Assembly (NCBI GenBank): GCA_002839355.1
Contig: PGXW01000031.1
Coordinates: forward strand, 1 to 46,557
Length of the DNA: 46,557 nt
Origin: Spirochaetae bacterium HGW-Spirochaetae-2
Lineage (GTDB): Bacteria; Spirochaetota; Spirochaetia; Sphaerochaetales; Sphaerochaetaceae
Direction: 5' to 3'
Part shown: positions 3,519-14,072 of the stretch, one piece after another
Layout: each line of letters starts with the position of its first letter
Position numbering within the stretch: position 1 is the stretch's first letter
The notes under the pieces: generated by a model
Databases searched by the model: none
The model's input: only the letters and a program-made list of their open reading frames with translations
What the model was told of the DNA's origin: nothing
Program-made: the position numbers and the translations under genes

Positions 3519-4349
3519 CTAAATATCACCTTTAGCGATGTTAACTAAATCATGCCACGTCAAAGTTTCGAGATCCTCACTATTAAATGAGTAATAAGTA
3601 GCCAATATATTACTTACAATACGTTTTCTATCGTCAAAACCACCTGCCAAGTAATTTTCTCTAATCCTTTTATGTTCCTTCAATTTTAGTACCACTGCCT
3701 CATATGAATATACAGCTGAGAGATTTTCAATAATTTTCATATCAATTGATCCGATAAATTCATGGCTTATCTTTGTTAGAGTTGCTACATCTTTAAATGT
3801 TGGGGGACTTCCCCCTAAATAGTCAGCAAGAAGTTTATGAATGTCTAGTCCAGCATATTTATCATGAATCAATTCTTCGTTACCTGTTAAGCATTCATAA
3901 TGTTCCTTCTTTATTTCATTTTCTGAAAAAAAATGAAGCATGTTATTCCTGTAACAAATCAACAAATCAATGAAAGCTTTCTGGAGTCGGTCGGTTCGAA
4001 AGTATTCTGCAACACCCATTGCCTTTTTAAAAACTGATTGTCCTGCACCATCGAATATTTCTTGGAATTTTACATTTTCTATGTATTTAGGTTTTCTGTT
4101 TAGCTCTGTGAAATATAGGTCAAGCCCATCAACAGCAAAAGCTAGATAAGATTTTAAGATAAATTGTCGGGACCTACTTATTGAATTTTCCAAATTCTCA
4201 GGGTTCCACGTGGTTGAAAAATCTTCAGGACATTTAATGTTCTTATCCGTTAATCTCAAATTATAAAGAGCAATTAATGAAGTTATCAAAAAATGATTTG
4301 ATTGTCCAAAATTCTTTTTAAATTTTTTACGTGCAGCTGTTGTCTTCAT
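3519..4349 (-). CDS. Hypothetical protein with HEPN-type RNNMLH motif
   Basis: A 276-residue, lysine- and asparagine-rich protein I cannot name. Residues 134-139 read RNNMLH, which fits the R-x4-6-H signature of HEPN ribonucleases (polar residue after the arginine). A helical segment around 62-85 precedes it, as in HEPN folds. There is no obvious membrane segment. HEPN proteins commonly act as RNA-cutting toxins in abortive infection and anticodon-nuclease systems. The ATG at 4349 has no Shine-Dalgarno. Instead a tRNA-shaped RNA ends 6 nt upstream, so the two are probably co-transcribed and the message may be leaderless after processing. Very AT-rich relative to the prophage. The HEPN assignment is motif-based inference. 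Confidence 0.5.
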   Translation of the reverse strand: MKTTAARKKFKKNFGQSNHFLITSLIALYNLRLTDKNIKCPEDFSTTWNPENLENSISRSRQFILKSYLAFAVDGLDLYFTELNRKPKYIENVKFQEIFDGAGQSVFKKAMGVAEYFRTDRLQKAFIDLLICYRNNMLHFFSENEIKKEHYECLTGNEELIHDKYAGLDIHKLLADYLGGSPPTFKDVATLTKISHEFIGSIDMKIIENLSAVYSYEAVVLKLKEHKRIRENYLAGGFDDRKRIVSNILATYYSFNSEDLETLTWHDLVNIAKGDI

Positions 4350-4355
4350 AAATAT

Positions 4356-4450
4356 TGCAACATATAGGACTCGAACCTACATCTCTCCCTTTTAAGGATG
4401 CACAAACACACCAGTGAAGGGGAACGGCTTTCCAGTTAGTCTAATGTTAC
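4356..4450 (-). tRNA. tRNA-shaped RNA gene with expanded anticodon loop
   Basis: On the minus strand GTAACAT pairs with ATGTTGC as a 7-bp acceptor stem with discriminator A. The T arm is GTAGG-TTCGAGT-CCTAT. U8, A14, A15, G18, G19, A21 and Y48 are all in place. The D stem GACT/AGCC has one mismatch. For the middle, TTCCC (RNA nt 27-31) pairs with GGGAG (62-66), leaving a 30-nt anticodon loop and a 4-nt variable loop. Alternatively a 7-nt loop CTTCACT (anticodon UCA) with a long variable arm is possible, but its stem has two mismatches. No encoded CCA. It is 95 nt long. It could be a degenerate tRNA, a tRNA mimic or an antitoxin RNA for the HEPN-like gene just downstream. Confidence 0.55.
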
Positions 4451-4456
4451 GGACTA

Positions 4457-4485
4457 AGTATAATCTACAATATTCCAGAAAACAA
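4457..4485 (-). promoter_or_regulatory. Sigma-70 promoter of the tRNA-shaped RNA
   Basis: Reading leftward, TTGTTT (4485-4480) and TATACT (4462-4457) are separated by exactly 17 bp. Six bases later comes the first nucleotide of the acceptor stem, so the expected +1 is at or next to RNA nt 1. This promoter would drive both the RNA and the HEPN-like ORF. Confidence 0.65.
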
Positions 4486-4614: not shown

Positions 4615-5178
4615 TTATTCATATCTCCGTCTTTTATCTTCTAATAACTTTTTTAAAAAGGGTTTGATTGATCCAAGAATAATAGCAGCTACTTTTTTTT
4701 CTTCTCTACTAGATAGCTCAGATTTTTTATTGAACATCTTTAACATAAATTTATAGTCCAACTCTGGATTAAAATTATTATACTTGTTTCTCTTGAAGGC
4801 ACCTTCTTCAAACAAATAATGAAGCATTTTTTTTGAGAAGAACTCGGCTGATAAGGTTAAGAATTGGTTATTTTCAATGGCGTGAAGTAACTTAAAAAGT
4901 TGTTCTTTAATTTTCACCTCTTCATCCAAGTCGTTTCTTTCAAACTTTTTTATACAAGAACTTCCAATGGGGAATAGAGTTTTTCCATTTAAATCATTAC
5001 GAATTGTGAAGAGATAACGTAAATTTTCCTTCCCACAGATACACGATTCTATTAGTGTATCGTCCTCTGCAAAATCATGAATACTCCATTCTTCTACTGC
5101 AGATTTCCAATCTTTTGCTACTGATAATTCGATTACAGTTTCTATTAACCTATTATAATATGAACTACTTTCACTCAA
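4615..5178 (-). CDS. Hypothetical protein with CxCG...C motif
   Basis: A 187-residue protein of no family I can name. Residues about 47-80 read CICGKENLRYLFTIRN followed by a glycine-rich turn and IGSSCIKKF. CxCG and a later Cys in a GSSC context look like a small zinc-binding treble-clef unit. The rest is helical and lysine-rich. It starts with TTG at 5178: GGAGGG lies 6-7 nt upstream, so the unusual start codon is well supported. It is divergent from the OLD nuclease gene across a 417-bp gap, and a defence-island role is suggested only by its neighbours. Confidence 0.6.
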   Translation of the reverse strand: MSESSSYYNRLIETVIELSVAKDWKSAVEEWSIHDFAEDDTLIESCICGKENLRYLFTIRNDLNGKTLFPIGSSCIKKFERNDLDEEVKIKEQLFKLLHAIENNQFLTLSAEFFSKKMLHYLFEEGAFKRNKYNNFNPELDYKFMLKMFNKKSELSSREEKKVAAIILGSIKPFLKKLLEDKRRRYE

Positions 5179-5595: not shown

Positions 5596-7158
5596 ATGCA
5601 ACGAATTGTGAAAGGAATCCGACTTTTTAACTATTGTCGTTTTATGGACTTCTCAACAGATTTTAATGATAGGCTAAATATATTGATTGGAGATAATGAA
5701 TCGGGTAAAAGTAGTATTTTATCTGCAATTGATATTGTATTGAGTGGAAGTCGTAGTAAGGTTGAGGCACTTGGTTTAGATAAACTATTTAATACTGATA
5801 TTATTAAGAATTATTTAAAGTCTGCAAAAAGGTACGATGACCTGCCTGAACTTTTTATTGAAGTCTTTTTAAATGATTTCAATGAAAAGGAACTAGAAGG
5901 GAAAAGTCATCCTTCTGGCCAGTATTGTCATGGGTTATATTTATTATGCCAACCTAGAGATGATCTAAGTAAAGAAATAAAAGACATTCTTGATAAAGGT
6001 GAGGATAACTTTCCTTTTGAATATTATTCAATAACCTTCAAAACATTTGCAGACCAAAGCTATACCGGGTATAGCCGGTTCCTCCGTCATCTACTAATTG
6101 ATAATTCAAAAATTAGCAATGATTATGCAACAAAGACCTATATTAGTACTGTGTACCAGGCTTTTGCTGACGGCGCTGAGAGAAACAAACATCTTTATGA
6201 GTATAGAAGCTATAAGGAGAAATATTCTAAAACTGAACTTGCAAATATTAATAGTAGGATTCAAGATTACAAATTTGCTGTTAAGTCAAATTCCAAAAAC
6301 AACCTTGAAACTGATCTGACTATTACTGAAGAGGGCATTGATATTGAGAATAAAGGGATGGGGCGTCAATGTTTCATCAGAACAGAGTTTGCTTTGCAGA
6401 AAAATGGTAACGAATTAGACGTCATACTTTTAGAAGAGCCAGAAAACCACTTAAGTCATACAAATATGTACAGATTGATTCAAAAGATAAAAGATACCGA
6501 CTCTCGTCAAGTTTTTCTTTCTACACATAGCAATCTTATTAGTGCTAGATTAGATTTGAGAAAATCTATCTTCTTGAATAGCAGTTCTTGCGATCCTCTG
6601 CAGCTAAATAAATTAGAAGAGAATACTGCAAAATTTTTTATGAAGGCTTCAGATAACAATATTTTAGAATACATTATGTCTAATAAAGTATTATTAGTAG
6701 AAGGTGATGCTGAATATATATTAATGAGTCAATTTTATTATAACTCAACATCAGAAGAGATTGAGAAAAGTGGTATTCATATAATATCTGTTAGGGGGAC
6801 AAGTTTTAAACGATATTTGGATGTCGCAAAAATTTTAAAAATTAAAACAGCCATAATCCGTGATAATGATGGAAACTATAAAAACAATATCACTGAGTCA
6901 TATAAGAATTATATATCAGACATAATCCAGGTTTTCTCTGATGAAAATGATGATATAAAGACTTTTGAAATTGCTGTATTTAATGAAAACCGAAATATCT
7001 GTAATGAGTTGTTTGCTCCTGGTCGAAAAACTTTGTCAGTCTTAGATTATATGTTATCAGAAAAAGCTCAATGTGCATTTGAATTGCTGGATAAGAAAGG
7101 AGAGGAACTTTCCGTCCCTAAATATATAATAAAGGCAATAAATTGGATAAGAAAATAA
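5596..7158 (+). CDS. gajA: OLD-family ATPase/TOPRIM nuclease (GajA-like)
   Basis: A 520-residue class 2 OLD-type protein. Walker A is GDNESGKSS (32-40), the ABC signature-like NKGMGRQ is near 252-258, Walker B is DVILLEEPENH (275-285), and the switch histidine is in LSTHSN. The C-terminal TOPRIM nuclease begins with LLVEGDAE (366-373) and continues with RDNDGN (422-427), supplying the acidic metal ligands. Class 2 OLD proteins lie in tandem with a UvrD-like helicase, as here; the Gabija anti-phage system is that arrangement. The ATPase senses nucleotide state and licenses DNA cleavage. It is slightly shorter than typical GajA. Its 3' end overlaps the helicase gene by 16 nt, implying translational coupling. 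Confidence 0.82.
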   Translation: MQRIVKGIRLFNYCRFMDFSTDFNDRLNILIGDNESGKSSILSAIDIVLSGSRSKVEALGLDKLFNTDIIKNYLKSAKRYDDLPELFIEVFLNDFNEKELEGKSHPSGQYCHGLYLLCQPRDDLSKEIKDILDKGEDNFPFEYYSITFKTFADQSYTGYSRFLRHLLIDNSKISNDYATKTYISTVYQAFADGAERNKHLYEYRSYKEKYSKTELANINSRIQDYKFAVKSNSKNNLETDLTITEEGIDIENKGMGRQCFIRTEFALQKNGNELDVILLEEPENHLSHTNMYRLIQKIKDTDSRQVFLSTHSNLISARLDLRKSIFLNSSSCDPLQLNKLEENTAKFFMKASDNNILEYIMSNKVLLVEGDAEYILMSQFYYNSTSEEIEKSGIHIISVRGTSFKRYLDVAKILKIKTAIIRDNDGNYKNNITESYKNYISDIIQVFSDENDDIKTFEIAVFNENRNICNELFAPGRKTLSVLDYMLSEKAQCAFELLDKKGEELSVPKYIIKAINWIRK

Positions 7159-8165
7159 TTTTTGCTGTTGCAGGTTCAGGGAAGACTACATATATTGTTG
7201 AATCAATAAATGAAGAAGATCGTTTCCTCGTTATAACTTACACTGTAAATAATTTAAGAAATATTTCAGCTTCTATTAAGAGGAAATTTGGATACTTCCC
7301 GCAAAATATAGAAATCTATACATATTTTAAATTTCTTTATTCATTTTGTTTCGCACCATTTCTTGCATATGAGTTAGATGCAAGAGGCTTATTCCTAGAT
7401 TTCCCACCACGGAATACATTAAAATTTAGACGAACAGACCCTAGGTATTATCAAACAACTGACGGGAAATTGTTTAAGAATCGGTTGGCAAAACTTCTTG
7501 AGGTTAAGGATGTAATACCTGAAATCATTAAACGTTTAGAAAAATACTATGATTATCTTTACATTGATGAGGTGCAGGACTTTGGGGGTCATGATTTTAA
7601 TTTCCTAGAATCAATTCTCCAAACATCAGTTGGAGTGTTAATGGTAGGTGACTTTTATCAACATACCTTTGATACCAGTAGAGATGCCAAAATTAATGAG
7701 GGGCTCCATGATGATTATATTTCATATATATCTAGGTTTCAAAAGATTGGGATACAGTTCGATACAACGACATTAAGTAATAGCTATAGATGTAGCCCTC
7801 AGATATGTAATTTTATTACTTCAAACCTTGGAATTAAAATAGAATCTCATCGGACAGATCAAACTCATGTGTATGAAATCTCGGATTATGACAATGCTAA
7901 AAAGATATTTAGTGACAATTCAATAATTAAGTTGTTCTATCAGAGAAGTGATAAGTACCTAGGCTTTACCAGAAATTGGGGAGATTGTAAAGGCGAAGAT
8001 TGCTATGAAGATGTTTGCGTTCTATTAAATGCAACGACATATTCACTTTATCAAAAAAGGGAATTATATAAATCAGCTCCTTTGACAAGAAATAAGCTCT
8101 ATGTCGCATTTTCCCGAACTAGAAACAATCTCTATATACTTCCAGAAACCTTGATAAGCAAATAG
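7143..8165 (+). CDS. gajB: Compact UvrD-like SF1 helicase (GajB-like)
   Basis: A 340-residue superfamily 1 helicase with a nearly complete motif set: Walker A AVAGSGKTT (8-16), motif II DEVQD (142-146), motif III VGDFYQHTF, motif IV-like LSNSYRC, and motif VI YVAFSRTRNNLYI near the end. UvrD/Rep proteins are 650-750 residues and GajB about 490, so this is a minimal version lacking most 1B/2B insertions. It starts with TTG at 7143 inside the last codons of the nuclease gene. The pairing indicates a two-component defence complex in which the helicase binds damaged or terminal DNA and activates the nuclease. That mechanism is known for Gabija and inferred here. Confidence 0.8.
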   Translation: MDKKIIFAVAGSGKTTYIVESINEEDRFLVITYTVNNLRNISASIKRKFGYFPQNIEIYTYFKFLYSFCFAPFLAYELDARGLFLDFPPRNTLKFRRTDPRYYQTTDGKLFKNRLAKLLEVKDVIPEIIKRLEKYYDYLYIDEVQDFGGHDFNFLESILQTSVGVLMVGDFYQHTFDTSRDAKINEGLHDDYISYISRFQKIGIQFDTTTLSNSYRCSPQICNFITSNLGIKIESHRTDQTHVYEISDYDNAKKIFSDNSIIKLFYQRSDKYLGFTRNWGDCKGEDCYEDVCVLLNATTYSLYQKRELYKSAPLTRNKLYVAFSRTRNNLYILPETLISK

Positions 8166-8205: not shown

Positions 8206-9693
8206 TTAATTATCATAATCAGACAAGAATAAAGGAATAGCAACTTCAACGTTTTTATGGAGTTTCTTTTCTTCCACATGAACTGATAATGATAGATAGA
8301 TCACGGCTTCTCTTATATATCGCAAGAGTCTAAAAGTCTTTTCTGAAAGTTCGAATTCTGTCACCGAAAAAGCTAGAGTATCATTGCATAAATCTCCTTC
8401 AGTTTCATCTAGTTTAAACCAATGTATTTTGCAATACTTATGTTCAAGATTATTCCTTAAATCGTAAATTCTTTTTGCATCAGGATCTGCAACCTCAAGA
8501 TACTCCATATCTTTTCCATCATTTGAAAACAAATCTTTACTTAAGAAATACAACCCTCTTAATGGATTATTGTTCAATCCCTCTATGTTAGGATCAATTT
8601 GATTATTTCTATACCAAACATTTTTAAAGTAAACTTTATTCTTATCCTTCCCTAATCTTAAATATTCATTTAGGAAGTATCCAATTTTGTCAAACAAGGA
8701 GTATAGCATCTTAAATGAGTTTTTTAACTGCTCATATCTAAATCCATACTGGGGATAATCAAATGTATCAACTAGGCATCTGCCTTTATCCGAGAAATGA
8801 ATGCCTTCCCCAGATAATTCATGTTCATAGCAATAGAATAAATACCTAGCAGTCAAATACTCTTGTTTTATTTGATTATAAAACCCTTGGAAAACAGGTG
8901 CTGAAAAATCTCGTACAAGCATACTCGGGAGTGAAGTAACATCATGAGCAATCGCTGTATCAAAGAATAAATCATTTAGAGGGTTAAGGAATAAACCGTT
9001 GTCAAGAACCCATTTTTTATAAGATTTTTCCTGATCAGTCTTCCCTAATGAGTACTTCTTAAACTCATTCCTTTTTGATAAAAAACTTTCCCCAAGTTTT
9101 TTCTTAATGGCTTCTACACCTGAATCGAATACTGTTTGTGCTTCTTTAGGAATATTGGGCTGACTTGAATAGGTTCGAAGTAATCTATACGCATGTCGCA
9201 AAACTAATGCTTCATGATTTGTATCATATAGATAACTAGCATAATAAATTAATCCATGGCCATAATTACATCCAGCCATCCCAAATGTTGGCTCAATCTC
9301 CAATGCATTTTTCCAACACTCGATAGCATAAATAATTCGTCCTGATACAGAAAACATGTTTCCGAGATTTGTATATGCCTGAAGAAAAATATTTTTTCTA
9401 ATATGATCGGAAATATTGTTTGTTGAAACACATCTTCTAAATGATTTTATTGCATTGATATGTTCATTACGATTATAAGCCCATAAACCTTGCGATGTTG
9501 AGGAACGTATCTTATCCAAATCTGCCCAAGCATTACCGATATAATATTCAAGAACAGCAAGGTCATCCGGTGTATTGCAATTATCTCTAATTGATTCTGC
9601 ACTACTTATGCAATCATAAAGTGCTTTTTCATTTTTCTCCTCGTAAGATTTATCTATTAGCTTACCAATTTGAATAATATCTCCATTTATCAA
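8206..9693 (-). CDS. TPR protein with LA2681-type HEPN domain
   Basis: A 495-residue protein. The N-terminal half holds TPR-like helical pairs, for example around residues 107-140 (AYTNLGNMFSVSGRIIYAI...WKNALEIEP, split). The C-terminal half (about 270-480) resembles the LA2681-like HEPN family, with the catalytic-type motif RNNLEH at R413-H418. HEPN proteins of this sort are predicted RNases in defence islands, with the TPR part likely sensing or scaffolding. It is convergent with the Gabija-like pair (40-bp gap) and codirectional with the restriction genes to its right. The exact trigger and target are unknown. Confidence 0.72.
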   Translation of the reverse strand: MINGDIIQIGKLIDKSYEEKNEKALYDCISSAESIRDNCNTPDDLAVLEYYIGNAWADLDKIRSSTSQGLWAYNRNEHINAIKSFRRCVSTNNISDHIRKNIFLQAYTNLGNMFSVSGRIIYAIECWKNALEIEPTFGMAGCNYGHGLIYYASYLYDTNHEALVLRHAYRLLRTYSSQPNIPKEAQTVFDSGVEAIKKKLGESFLSKRNEFKKYSLGKTDQEKSYKKWVLDNGLFLNPLNDLFFDTAIAHDVTSLPSMLVRDFSAPVFQGFYNQIKQEYLTARYLFYCYEHELSGEGIHFSDKGRCLVDTFDYPQYGFRYEQLKNSFKMLYSLFDKIGYFLNEYLRLGKDKNKVYFKNVWYRNNQIDPNIEGLNNNPLRGLYFLSKDLFSNDGKDMEYLEVADPDAKRIYDLRNNLEHKYCKIHWFKLDETEGDLCNDTLAFSVTEFELSEKTFRLLRYIREAVIYLSLSVHVEEKKLHKNVEVAIPLFLSDYDN

Positions 9694-9838: not shown

Positions 9839-12490
9839 TTATAACTCCCTAAATTGTCTTGCCAATTGTATAAATGAGGAATTAGGCAGGACTTGTTTGG
9901 AGGGAATAAACAGGTATTGCCATTCCTTGTAGTTATTGGCATTTCCCCACCGAGAAGCTACTTCACAATACTGGATTCCTCGTTTCTTCTTTGCTATAAC
10001 ATCAGGATCATTCAATCGATCCTCACCTTTCACCTCTACAAGATATATAACATCTTTGGTCTCAACCACGAAGTCTGGTTCATAGATGTGACCATGATTA
10101 TACGTGATGTTGAACTCTTGTGGCATCGGGCGTAGCCAATTTATAACATCGCTGTCAACCTCGAGGATTCTTCCGAGTACCAATTCAGGATGGCTATCAA
10201 ACTTAGCAGTATCAAAAACACCTTTCTTTATTCCTTCAAAGAGAACGGATTGGATTTTCTCTGAATAACTTTCATCAAATAAATTGCTGCGTTCTTTATA
10301 GTTGTAGGTTTGTTGAAGATTGTAGTTCCGAGTTCCAACAACCTCTTCCTGGAAAAAACCATTTTCACAGTAGAAGTGTTGCATCATTTGATCATATATT
10401 TTTTTTGCAATGTCTCGCTTGAACATCATGACGATATTCTTCATTCCGTTCATTCCAAACTTATTCTCATAATGGCTACAAAGCTGGGATATTAGCTTAA
10501 AAAGCAGCGCGGCGCATTTCTCGTAATCAATTTCAGGTTTCTTTCTAAGCTCTTCAAGAATGACCTTCTGTGGGTTATAACCTTCAAAATCAATGGTATC
10601 ACCTTTGATGCGTTGCCTGTCATGCATATCTTCAAGATTTTGAATAATCATCTCATTCTTGATTGGTGCATGCGTAAACTCAGAAAGGTCTAGATTAAAG
10701 TCAATAAAAACATACTCTTCAACCCCAGCATCAGTAATTTTTATCCTTGGTATGGGGATGAACTTCGACTGGGCAGCACGATGCGTTCTTTCCGTATGCT
10801 CTTGTAGCCATAGGTCAAAAGGCATCTCGTTTTCTTTGTAGATATCAGCCAGGTCTTTATCCTGTGATAGTTGATTCTTAACATTTTCAATGATCTGTTC
10901 TTTCTGGTCTAAGGTGATGTTATGTGTTGGTGTATCTTGGATGATTTTAACAACTTCTTCACTAACAAGTTCTTCCGCCTTACGGAACATAGCGTCAGCA
11001 GTCTCGGATTTTTCAATATTTGTTTGGCTGTATGCTGTCTCTAACATTTCGTCCGATTCATTTTCCAACGTCAACTGAGTAACTGAGATTTTTTCCGGTA
11101 CGATTTCTTCAGCTTTAATGATGTTCCCAGCCTTGAATATTGAATCTCCTTTCTGTGCCTCTCTCAGGAGCTCCTGGAATTTGTCGTGCGCGGTGAGCAT
11201 GACTGCATCAACTTCCTTATCACCGGTACGCTCACCATACGGTAAACGTAAACCACGCCCCACCATTTGCTCACGTAAAATCTTTGAAGCAGCGGTTCGT
11301 AATGGAACGATAGTATACAGATTGTTCACATCCCATCCTTCCTTGAGCATGTTCACATGTATGACAATCTCAACAGGATTATTAGGGTTCTCTACATCGA
11401 GCAGAAGCCGGGTATTTGTATCACTTTCCGACCCTTTCTGTTTGGAGTGGACAATTATGGTTTTATTGCTGTAAATACCATCATGGAATTCATCTGACTT
11501 CACAAACCTTTCAACCCAAGCTGCATGCTCTGTGTCTTTACAAACGATAAGCATGAATGGTTTGACTTCCGGTCTATTATGATTAGCTGCGTAGACTTTC
11601 AATTTGAGTCTTGCATTCTCGTGGCAGGCAATACCATCGAGAAGCATCAACTTGTCGAGTTGTTCCTCACCAAAATTAAAAAAATCAATATCGGTACGAG
11701 TTACAGCAAATGGGGTGCGTGTATAGCCATCTTCGATAGCCTTGGACAACGGATATTCATATACTATATTCTTGAACGGCACCTGTTTGCTTCCATTTGG
11801 AACGAGTGGAGTGGCAGTTAACTCAATACCAAAGAGTGGATGCAATTCATTAAGTGCCTGAGCTCCTTTCGCTGCCCGATAATGGTGTGATTCATCCATA
11901 ATGAGCACCAAATCATCCAAATTGGAAAGGAATCGATAGAACGAATCTCCTATGGTCTCGCTGACCTTCTTCATATTTGCATCCTCTTTATTGAATTTAT
12001 CAATATTGAAAACAAAAATATGGATATCAGAATCAAATAGCATCAGAGGTTTTTCCTTGTAATCCTCATCGGCAATTATCTGCGGTGGATTACTGAAGCA
12101 ACCAAGTCCATTGAATACATATTTATGGTAACTAGGGTCGATCAAATCCTTTTTCAGTTTCTCATAGATCGTTGTATTCGGCGCAACGACAAAAAAGTTC
12201 TTAATATTGTGTTGCGTATATAAGTAGGCGATAAATGCTCCCATTAGCCGAGTCTTGCCAACGCCGGTAGCCAAAGCAAACGCTAGCGACACAAAGTCTC
12301 GTTCAAAATCTGTGCATATCGGATACAGGGCATGAACAGCCCCGAGAGCTGCCTTCAAATTCATGCCTTTCCGCAATGTTAAGCTTGTGGTGATCTCCTC
12401 AAGTATCTTTAATGATTCTGTTTGTGGCCTACGAAGAGACATCACACCACTAATATAGTCGGTGGTATAGTGAGGATAACGGTTACTCAT
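9839..12490 (-). CDS. res: Type III restriction endonuclease Res subunit
   Basis: ATP-dependent restriction subunit of a type III system. The helicase core begins with Walker A in ATGVGKTRL, has the DEAD-like box DESHH, and a motif VI region near MVGRGLRLPYG. The C-terminal PD-(D/E)XK nuclease is visible as PDFVVETKDVIYLVEVKG. I chose the ATG at 12490 because GGAGGTGG lies about 6 nt upstream and the codon overlaps the mod stop (ATGAGTAA), giving 883 residues. A longer frame to 12517 lacks a ribosome binding site. It works as a complex with Mod: two head-to-head unmethylated sites trigger translocation or diffusion and cleavage. Appears intact. Confidence 0.92.
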   Translation of the reverse strand: MSNRYPHYTTDYISGVMSLRRPQTESLKILEEITTSLTLRKGMNLKAALGAVHALYPICTDFERDFVSLAFALATGVGKTRLMGAFIAYLYTQHNIKNFFVVAPNTTIYEKLKKDLIDPSYHKYVFNGLGCFSNPPQIIADEDYKEKPLMLFDSDIHIFVFNIDKFNKEDANMKKVSETIGDSFYRFLSNLDDLVLIMDESHHYRAAKGAQALNELHPLFGIELTATPLVPNGSKQVPFKNIVYEYPLSKAIEDGYTRTPFAVTRTDIDFFNFGEEQLDKLMLLDGIACHENARLKLKVYAANHNRPEVKPFMLIVCKDTEHAAWVERFVKSDEFHDGIYSNKTIIVHSKQKGSESDTNTRLLLDVENPNNPVEIVIHVNMLKEGWDVNNLYTIVPLRTAASKILREQMVGRGLRLPYGERTGDKEVDAVMLTAHDKFQELLREAQKGDSIFKAGNIIKAEEIVPEKISVTQLTLENESDEMLETAYSQTNIEKSETADAMFRKAEELVSEEVVKIIQDTPTHNITLDQKEQIIENVKNQLSQDKDLADIYKENEMPFDLWLQEHTERTHRAAQSKFIPIPRIKITDAGVEEYVFIDFNLDLSEFTHAPIKNEMIIQNLEDMHDRQRIKGDTIDFEGYNPQKVILEELRKKPEIDYEKCAALLFKLISQLCSHYENKFGMNGMKNIVMMFKRDIAKKIYDQMMQHFYCENGFFQEEVVGTRNYNLQQTYNYKERSNLFDESYSEKIQSVLFEGIKKGVFDTAKFDSHPELVLGRILEVDSDVINWLRPMPQEFNITYNHGHIYEPDFVVETKDVIYLVEVKGEDRLNDPDVIAKKKRGIQYCEVASRWGNANNYKEWQYLFIPSKQVLPNSSFIQLARQFREL

Positions 12491-14072
12491 TGCATTCCAC
12501 CTCCATATCATCCTCATATACAGGAGGATGAATGATATTCAGATTATAATCTGTTCTACCGAATTCACATCGGTCGAGGAGCATTTGCGGTATCTTCTTT
12601 AAAGAAATATGCTTATAAGCGCTTTCTAGCCCTGCATCAAAGGATCGGCAAGCGATTATAAGATACTCATTTTCTTCCATAGTATCTTTAATGGAATCTA
12701 GATAAGTACTGTTCATGTGACGTGTGGTAACAAAGAGAAATGACTTCTCATTGCCCACGGATTGCTTCCAGAACAGGTCGTTATCCGGTTGATATTCAAA
12801 ACCCTCGTGAAGAGCCACCGCCGCGGCCAACATTTCTGCGCTATACTCTGTATTTATCACAGGCTCCCCGAAAGAATCTGTGTTGATGAGGGTGGGTGCG
12901 AGCTCAAAAAATCGGTACCCTCCACCACCTTTCCAAGAGACAGACTTTGTGATCCCCCCCTTATCTTTTCCAGCAACAACTTTATCAAGTCGTACTTTAC
13001 AGTGGGTATATGCATGTTCTCCCATCTCAATCCCAATCCACCGCCTACCCATTTTGTGGGCGACTGCTGCTGTAGTTCCAGAGCCAAGAAAGGAGTCAAG
13101 CACAAGGTCATTTTGATTTGTTGCGATATGAATTATTCGTTGTAATAATCGTTCTGGTTTTGGGGTATCAAAAGCGTTTGCAGCACCAAAAAGAGCGATA
13201 ACTTCTTTCTTTGCTTCTTGATTGTGTCCCACTTCTTTATTCGTCCACCAGGTCCAAGGGACTACTCCTTCACGTTCATATAAATACGTCTTCCTCCTAG
13301 GAATACCCCTTCCATCCTTACCGAACCACATTCTTCCATCTCTTACTTGTTGCAGATACACTTCCTCAACATTTTTCCAACATCGTCCTTCTGGAGGAGT
13401 GTATTCAATACCTGCTGGTGTGACAATTTTGTACATTTGATTCGGTCGAAAACCTTGTGCGGTAAAATCTGAGGAAGTCCAAGGTCCACGGGGGTCCTCA
13501 TCTGGATTTTTAAAATTTTTAATTTGACTATCATTGAGAGGAATTTTATTCCGTACATTTTTAAAAACTTCCCTATTTTTCGCATAGGACAAAACATATT
13601 CATGACCATCACTTATTACAGCACGCATATCTGGAGATGTACGCTTCTGCCAGAGATTAGTAGCCAGGTAGTTATTCCGCCCAAAAACCTCATCACAAAG
13701 AACCTTTAAATATGCTTGTTCATCATCATCAATACTGATCCAAATGCTTCCATCTGTAGCGAGTAATCTCCATAGAATCTGTAACCGTGGCCGCATAAGA
13801 TTAAGCCATTGGCTATGTTCCAGATTATCATCATACTGCTCAAAAGCAGAACCTGTATTATAAGGTGGATCTATATAAATGCATTTGATCTTCCCCGCAA
13901 AATTGATTTCTAGCGCCTTGAGTGCCAACAGATTATCTCCATGGATCAGCATGTTTTCAGTATCAGATTCTGCAAAATTATTTGACATCGTTGCATTCTC
14001 AATTAAAATGCGCGGTTCAACGATTATGGGTTCCGCTTTCCCATACCAAGTCAGTTCCAATTTATTAGCCAT
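12483..14072 (-). CDS. mod: Type III adenine methyltransferase Mod subunit
   Basis: A 529-residue DNA N6-adenine methyltransferase that also supplies the target recognition for Res. The beta-class order is visible: catalytic DPPYNTG at 68-74, then a central target-recognition region, then the SAM-binding FLGSGTT in the C-terminal half. AGGAA lies about 7 nt before the ATG. It overlaps res by 8 nt, so the two subunits are translated together. I see no simple-sequence repeat tract, so phase variation as in some mod genes is not indicated. The recognition sequence cannot be read from the protein. Confidence 0.93.
   Translation of the reverse strand: MANKLELTWYGKAEPIIVEPRILIENATMSNNFAESDTENMLIHGDNLLALKALEINFAGKIKCIYIDPPYNTGSAFEQYDDNLEHSQWLNLMRPRLQILWRLLATDGSIWISIDDDEQAYLKVLCDEVFGRNNYLATNLWQKRTSPDMRAVISDGHEYVLSYAKNREVFKNVRNKIPLNDSQIKNFKNPDEDPRGPWTSSDFTAQGFRPNQMYKIVTPAGIEYTPPEGRCWKNVEEVYLQQVRDGRMWFGKDGRGIPRRKTYLYEREGVVPWTWWTNKEVGHNQEAKKEVIALFGAANAFDTPKPERLLQRIIHIATNQNDLVLDSFLGSGTTAAVAHKMGRRWIGIEMGEHAYTHCKVRLDKVVAGKDKGGITKSVSWKGGGGYRFFELAPTLINTDSFGEPVINTEYSAEMLAAAVALHEGFEYQPDNDLFWKQSVGNEKSFLFVTTRHMNSTYLDSIKDTMEENEYLIIACRSFDAGLESAYKHISLKKIPQMLLDRCEFGRTDYNLNIIHPPVYEDDMEVECNE

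Follow-up and report, generated by a model that had tools for sequence, protein, structure and literature searches.

The tRNA-shaped RNA encoded at positions 4,356 to 4,450 of the prophage DNA analysed here (the window, 46,557 nt in total) raises the question of what a molecule with the body of a tRNA and a 30-nt loop in place of the anticodon loop may be, and what it may do directly in front of a protein gene. The features of the window and the related loci are collected in Table 1.

Table 1. Coordinates of the tRNA-like RNA, the adjacent gene and their surroundings in the window, and the homologous loci
Feature	Position	Strand	Remarks
tRNA-like RNA, 95 nt, cloverleaf	4356..4450	-	RF00005 match; covariance model R1; covariation
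Anticodon arm, 5-bp stem closing a 30-nt loop	4385..4424	-	stem paired in 29 of 30 cells over six homologues; two-sided changes
30-nt loop CUUCACUGGUGUGUUUGUGCAUCCUUAAAA, RNA nt 32-61	4390..4419	-	similar to L018 loop
Probable sigma-70-type promoter, TTGTTT-N17-TATACT	4457..4485	-	6 nt before RNA nt 1
HEPN-like protein, 276 aa	3519..4349	-	ATG 6 nt past last base of RNA; homologues with upstream RNA, model, fold matches
RNxxxH motif (R134, N135, H139), HEPN active site	3933..3950	-	invariant in aligned proteins
187-aa ORF upstream of module	4615-5178	-	no family above cut-off; counterpart not noticed at homologous modules
Gabija-type pair (GajA 5596-7158, GajB 7143-8165)	5596-8165	+	about 1 kb from module, opposite direction
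Second HEPN protein, TPR repeats	8206-9693	-	Pfam HEPN_LA2681, E 4e-61; same island
Type III restriction system in prophage (res subunit 9839-12517, DNA methyltransferase 12483-14072)	9839-14072	-	
Homologue, second prophage of the same genome (C51)			29% identity to window protein
Homologue, Sinorhizobium americanum plasmid A (L012)			32% identity
Homologue, IMG/VR contig L018			38% identity in best segment
Homologue, IMG/VR contig L019			31% identity
Homologue, Pseudoalteromonas piscicida replicon (L021)			33% identity to C51 protein; frame broken in record

Structure and conservation of the tRNA-like RNA

Read on the minus strand from 4450 to 4356, the RNA is GUAACAU-UA-GACU-AACUGGAA-AGCC-G-UUCCC-[CUUCACUGGUGUGUUUGUGCAUCCUUAAAA]-GGGAG-AGAU-GUAGG-UUCGAGU-CCUAU-AUGUUGC-A. 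Rfam RF00005 matches this strand from 4450 to 4356 over the full model with 40.4 bits (E 3e-5, cut-off 29 bits) and places a 26-nt insert in the anticodon loop, which bears out the original prediction of a tRNA-shaped RNA with a 30-nt anticodon loop. The anticodon stem UUCCC/GGGAG joins nt 27-31 (4424-4420) to nt 62-66 (4389-4385) by five of five pairs, one of them G-U. The variable loop is that of class I (4 nt), the discriminator is the A at 4356, CCA is not encoded after it, and the D stem contains one A-C mismatch. The T arm resembles that of the host tRNA-Trp, a likeness not common to all members of the family; mimicry of tRNA-Trp is not claimed.

A tRNA scan of the genome ranked this RNA and its counterpart in the second prophage within the four weakest of 49 matches. 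The covariance model R1, whose training set comprised the window RNA and four others of the family but not that of L018, assigned the window RNA 77.5 bits, against at most 62 for ordinary tRNAs in 296 Spirochaetota genomes; among the matches listed from these genomes, those beyond the two modules are ordinary-length tRNAs, and the E-values of R1 are rough. Folding, put forward earlier as a check, was ambiguous: the minimum-energy fold of the window RNA alone contains no D, in-register anticodon or T helix. The same single-sequence folding of 44 ordinary host tRNAs, however, lost the anticodon stem in 11 and the T stem in 15, and since between a quarter and a third of them thus misfold as well, this result is not counter-evidence.

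Protein-based searches revealed five diverged homologues of the protein encoded next to the RNA, each of them accompanied by an RNA of this kind at the corresponding place. The family thus has six distinct members, two of them from short viral contigs, and it appeared rare and patchy in viral contigs, in plasmids and phages searched by tblastn, and in 393 and 395 Spirochaetota-centred genomes. A search of genome contigs for more members returned identical copies only; a stretch of 1082 bp covering RNA, gene and flank at the locus in the window occurs with zero differences in five other records, one of them 'Sphaerochaeta sp. UBA6084', and these copies were not counted toward conservation.

Directly upstream of four of the five homologues and on the same strand, Rfam reports a tRNA match (38.9, 52.6, 56.1 and 26.3 bits, the last, in L021, being under the cut-off), and these four RNAs keep the anticodon stem and have an enlarged loop. 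No Rfam tRNA match was obtained in L018, where the RNA is recognisable but more degenerate, with a T loop one base short and a D loop lacking GG; R1, built without it, detects it with 22.8 bits (E 6e-4). At all six loci the RNA ends 6-26 nt from the start codon on the same strand; given the density of tRNA genes, a tRNA on that strand and no more than 50 nt away would be expected by chance with a probability of about 3e-4 at each locus. A search with R1 found one tRNA-like RNA per locus and no tandem repeats.

In L012 (3953-3955) and L019 (2972-2974), and not in the other four loci, CCA stands right after the discriminator, so that some members could, judging by their 3' ends, be mature-tRNA-like without CCA addition.

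Pairing was analysed in an alignment of five sequences with 21 pairs. Cloverleaf cells are paired in 95% of cases, versus 70% in shuffles, and two-sided changes occur at 17 of the 21 pairs, a value matched by none of 500 shuffles; when partner columns were slid by 1-3 positions, pairing dropped to 31-45%. In these five sequences the anticodon stem is 100% paired, with a two-sided change at each of its five positions. The comparison indicates that the cloverleaf structure is under selection, and because two-sided changes occur with pairing retained, a decayed tRNA or a chance stem is refuted. Covariation and a conserved stem with a variable long loop had been set beforehand as the test of a tRNA mimic; in the homologues, the acceptor, D, anticodon and T helices are kept by compensatory change as the loop varies, which supports the mimic. 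The same data bear on the degraded tRNA that the original prediction had listed as another option, here taken as the remnant of a tRNA gene into which a mobile element had integrated, standing beside the ORF by accident. Prophages often attach at tRNA genes, and the window is a prophage; nevertheless, compensatory changes in every arm, the constant position before one protein family at six loci, the recurrence of the layout in a spirochaete, in alpha- and gammaproteobacteria and in viral contigs, and a neighbour that is not an integrase (the integrase is a serine recombinase at 330-1340) leave this origin with hardly any probability.

A misaligned tRNA, whether ordinary, of class II or interrupted by a short intron, was also considered, given that both Rfam and ARAGORN call a tRNA here. 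The earlier remark that a 7-nt loop with anticodon UCA needs a mismatched stem held up: the stem of the 7-nt reading has three of five pairs in the window and zero or one of five in the five homologues, versus four or five of five for the long-loop stem across the six. The ARAGORN call, tRNA-Val(cac), is unsupported by the homologues, in which the 7-nt-loop stem is mostly unpaired. Class II is contradicted by the variable loop, which measures 3-4 nt in all six RNAs, and the intron by its size, since the introns that bacterial tRNA genes are known to harbour are of group I and much longer than this insert; moreover, the Sphaerochaeta-like host genome encodes 45 ordinary tRNAs of its own. Such a misaligned tRNA is therefore very improbable. 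The window RNA does have the RF00005 cloverleaf of a decoding tRNA, and four of the six module RNAs exceed the cut-off of that model, but it does not have the 7-nt loop and, by this comparison, is not a decoding tRNA.

The adjacent HEPN-like gene and its transcript

The gene next to the RNA, which the original prediction missed, is probably of the HEPN type, and it is from this neighbour that the likely meaning of the RNA derives. The encoded protein carries YRNNMLH, an RNxxxH motif like that of HEPN ribonucleases, and the motif was found in all six members (WRNKIVH in the Pseudoalteromonas piece). Searches of Pfam and NCBIfam families gave no match for the 276-aa protein, and none of the homologues matched Abi_2. 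The PADLOC model DUF3644 matches the window protein weakly (E 0.006), and one homologue matches Pfam HEPN_RiboL-PSP with E 0.0009, which is below the cut-off; none of the library families is matched above its threshold.

The AlphaFold model of the window protein, computed from a four-sequence alignment with the Sinorhizobium row left out, is all-helical with a mean pLDDT of 76.7 and values above 80 in the active-site region. Among solved structures, the first six places are taken by HEPN toxins of the HepT type (Z 9.3-10.1, 128-148 residues aligned, all-helical models being prone to inflated Z), the next unrelated chain having Z 7.7; Csm6' and HepS, a HEPN protein from a prophage, rank lower. 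Foldseek by itself gave no significant match for the model, for which reason the HEPN assignment rests on motif and fold jointly, and a BFVD fold search of the protein returned nothing. With fold support that is moderate, the product of 3519-4349 is likely a HEPN ribonuclease.

The promoter in the window is weak when taken alone, since 23% of shuffles are as good. A -35-like hexamer (TTGACA three times, TTGACC, TTGAGT and TTGTTT) nevertheless lies 33-40 nt before RNA nt 1 at all six loci, with -10-like sequences of uneven quality between it and the RNA, and on account of this constant spacing transcription probably starts at or near the first base of the RNA and runs on into the gene. No terminator-like site was found between RNA and gene, and where a ribosome-binding site can be seen, it follows the RNA closely.

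This arrangement is also what would be expected of a cis-acting leader, in which the HEPN protein would target the mimic within its own mRNA, by binding or cutting it, and so repress its own synthesis, the RNA having no separate life. A tRNA-mimicking leader is found in thrS of E. coli, and at the present loci the RNA serves as 5' leader: it ends 6-26 nt ahead of the start codon, no terminator intervenes, and the ribosome-binding sites that are visible come directly after it. A repressor site, however, would not require all the features of a tRNA, and the full cloverleaf, the TTCGA T-loop (degenerate in L018), the discriminator and the CCA of L012 and L019 suggest a free tRNA-like product; regulation of this kind alone is considered unlikely.

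Possible function of the module

The RNA, its structure, its linkage to the gene and the HEPN motif are established as a module by comparison of the six loci. The reading preferred here, with a probability of about 0.5, is a two-part module in which a tRNA-mimic RNA binds and restrains a toxic HEPN ribonuclease that recognises tRNA-shaped RNA. From a single promoter, a transcript would begin at the first base of the tRNA-like RNA and continue into the ribonuclease gene. The RNA consists of a tRNA body (acceptor, D and T arms and anticodon stem) and is unable to decode, because a loop of 20-30 nt replaces the anticodon loop; with no terminator ahead of the gene, freeing it from the mRNA would call for a processing step, such as cleavage by RNase Z. 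The HEPN protein would be a toxic ribonuclease recognising tRNA-shaped RNA and probably cleaving anticodon loops, and the co-transcribed mimic would bind it and hold it inactive, as RNA antitoxins do. Phage infection, by halting transcription or destroying the RNA, would then release the nuclease and shut down translation. A tRNA-shaped inhibitor suggests a nuclease with a tRNA substrate, for which the HEPN anticodon nucleases PrrC and RloC (PMC3710099) may serve as precedents. The prophage location and the Gabija pair and type III restriction system alongside were counted in favour of this restrained-toxin module. The decoy mentioned in the original prediction is a possible role for the RNA but not the best reading.

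The loops of the six RNAs measure 30 and 29 nt (window, L018), 26 and 26 nt (L012, L019), and 20 and 20 nt (L020, L021), so that length tracks the protein subfamily. The loops of the window and L018 and those of L012 and L019 are significantly similar when compared with shuffles, none of 500 shuffles being as similar as the window and L018 loops are. Across subfamilies the sequences differ and have in common a mostly U-rich start, C-U-U in four of six, and an A-rich end in all (UUAAAA, CUAAAA, UUUAAA, CUUAAA, UCAGA). Since both length and similarity follow the protein subfamily, the loop, to judge from these few sequences, seems to evolve in step with the protein and to be neither free nor hypervariable. 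A role as anti-Shine-Dalgarno sequence (CCUCC in L018, UCCUU in the window) was dropped, the other four loops being without it.

The loop might instead be bait, the mimic being a substrate or sensor whose exposed loop is cut by the HEPN protein or by phage or host anticodon nucleases, with cleavage activating the system. The anticodon loop is the customary cleavage site of HEPN anticodon nucleases, and the long loop on an intact anticodon stem is largely single-stranded: a hairpin inside it is not significant in the window, and only that of L018 beats shuffles. No cutting motif is common to the subfamilies past the U-rich start and A-rich end, and this role is held to be improbable. Still more doubtful is that the tRNA body is a scaffold displaying a subfamily-specific loop of 20-30 nt that sets the specificity of the nuclease, as a natural guide or sensor RNA for a defence enzyme that cuts RNA, analogous to the line leading from AbiF to Cas13 but separate from it. 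The genome of the window, searched on both strands with up to three mismatches, contains no second match to the 30-nt loop and no complementary site, and the loops are conserved within subfamilies and not fast-changing.

Two further observations concern the surroundings of the modules. At the Sinorhizobium locus an unrelated HEPN gene adjoins the module (L012:5408-6802). The C51 prophage, which carries the second module, contains two further odd tRNA-like RNAs on the plus strand, neither of which adjoins a HEPN gene. The first (C51:49694-49797, L017:1695-1798) measures 104 nt and has a long region past the anticodon arm; the second (C51:51747-51813, L017:3748-3814) measures 67 nt, has an anticodon stem of about 2 bp and lies some 30 nt before a phage gene.

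Taken together, the RNA-plus-gene pair, found on prophages and on mobile DNA of other kinds, looks like a so far undescribed module, either a toxin or an anti-phage system, under the control of an RNA. If the restrained-toxin reading is true, the antitoxin would be a copy of its toxin's probable substrate, and some prophage genes annotated as odd or pseudo-tRNAs may belong to defence modules. A system this small, with two parts, lends itself to direct tests in E. coli.

Comparison with known systems

The literature search covered neither preprints nor most subscription papers; within its reach, no published account of tRNA-like RNAs with HEPN genes, or of natural anticodon loops of this size, was found. 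The module shares with the tRNAs of RF00005 and of phages the acceptor, D and T arms, the loop bases of the tertiary contacts and the anticodon stem, and differs in its 20-30-nt loop, the lack of an anticodon and the tie to one protein gene. With HEPN/MNT (HepT-MntA) and the prophage RNase HepS it shares the predicted HEPN fold, HepT chains being the best matches and HepS also appearing further down the list, but no MNT or other recurring protein partner is present here and an RNA takes that place.

In the type III toxin-antitoxin systems (ToxIN, TenpIN, CptIN) an RNA precedes an RNase gene and both are served by one promoter; at all six loci of the present family an RNA directly precedes a putative RNase gene, with a promoter predicted from sequence. 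Their RNAs are pseudoknot repeats and their toxins have the ToxN fold, whereas a single tRNA-shaped RNA and a HEPN-like putative toxin occur here; because the repeat RNA is missing, the module is not filed as a type III member, though the favoured reading would work alike.

The closest layout, and the nearest tested precedent for the proposed mechanism, is that of AbiF/RCd22 (AbiF-AbiFr). AbiF is a HEPN toxin carried by prophages; an ncRNA encoded upstream and transcribed together with it binds the toxin and neutralises it both in cis and in trans (PMC12373285); AbiFr binds each AbiF monomer and inhibits it via a single-stranded bulge (review, PMC12737573). In both systems a prophage-borne gene for a HEPN RNase, predicted in the present case, follows straight after a structured ncRNA, expected on one transcript, and the active site is of the R-N/H/D-xxx-H type (PMC12373285, PMC12737573). 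The RNA here is, however, a tRNA cloverleaf and not the 36-37-nt abiF motif (RF03085), which has no match in the window at the gathering score or in the homologous loci (E 0.1-0.5); the protein is without an Abi_2 match, and the terminator that in AbiF lies between RNA and gene and yields excess RNA is absent. With protein family and RNA motif both lacking, the module is, by sequence criteria, not AbiF. RNA-controlled HEPN ribonucleases are of special interest since Cas13 is thought to derive from such a pair, AbiF (PMC12737573), and the controlling RNA of the present module is apparently a remade tRNA. RNA-partnered HEPN ribonucleases are thus already known, and what the comparison appears to add is a remodelled tRNA as the dedicated RNA partner of a predicted one.
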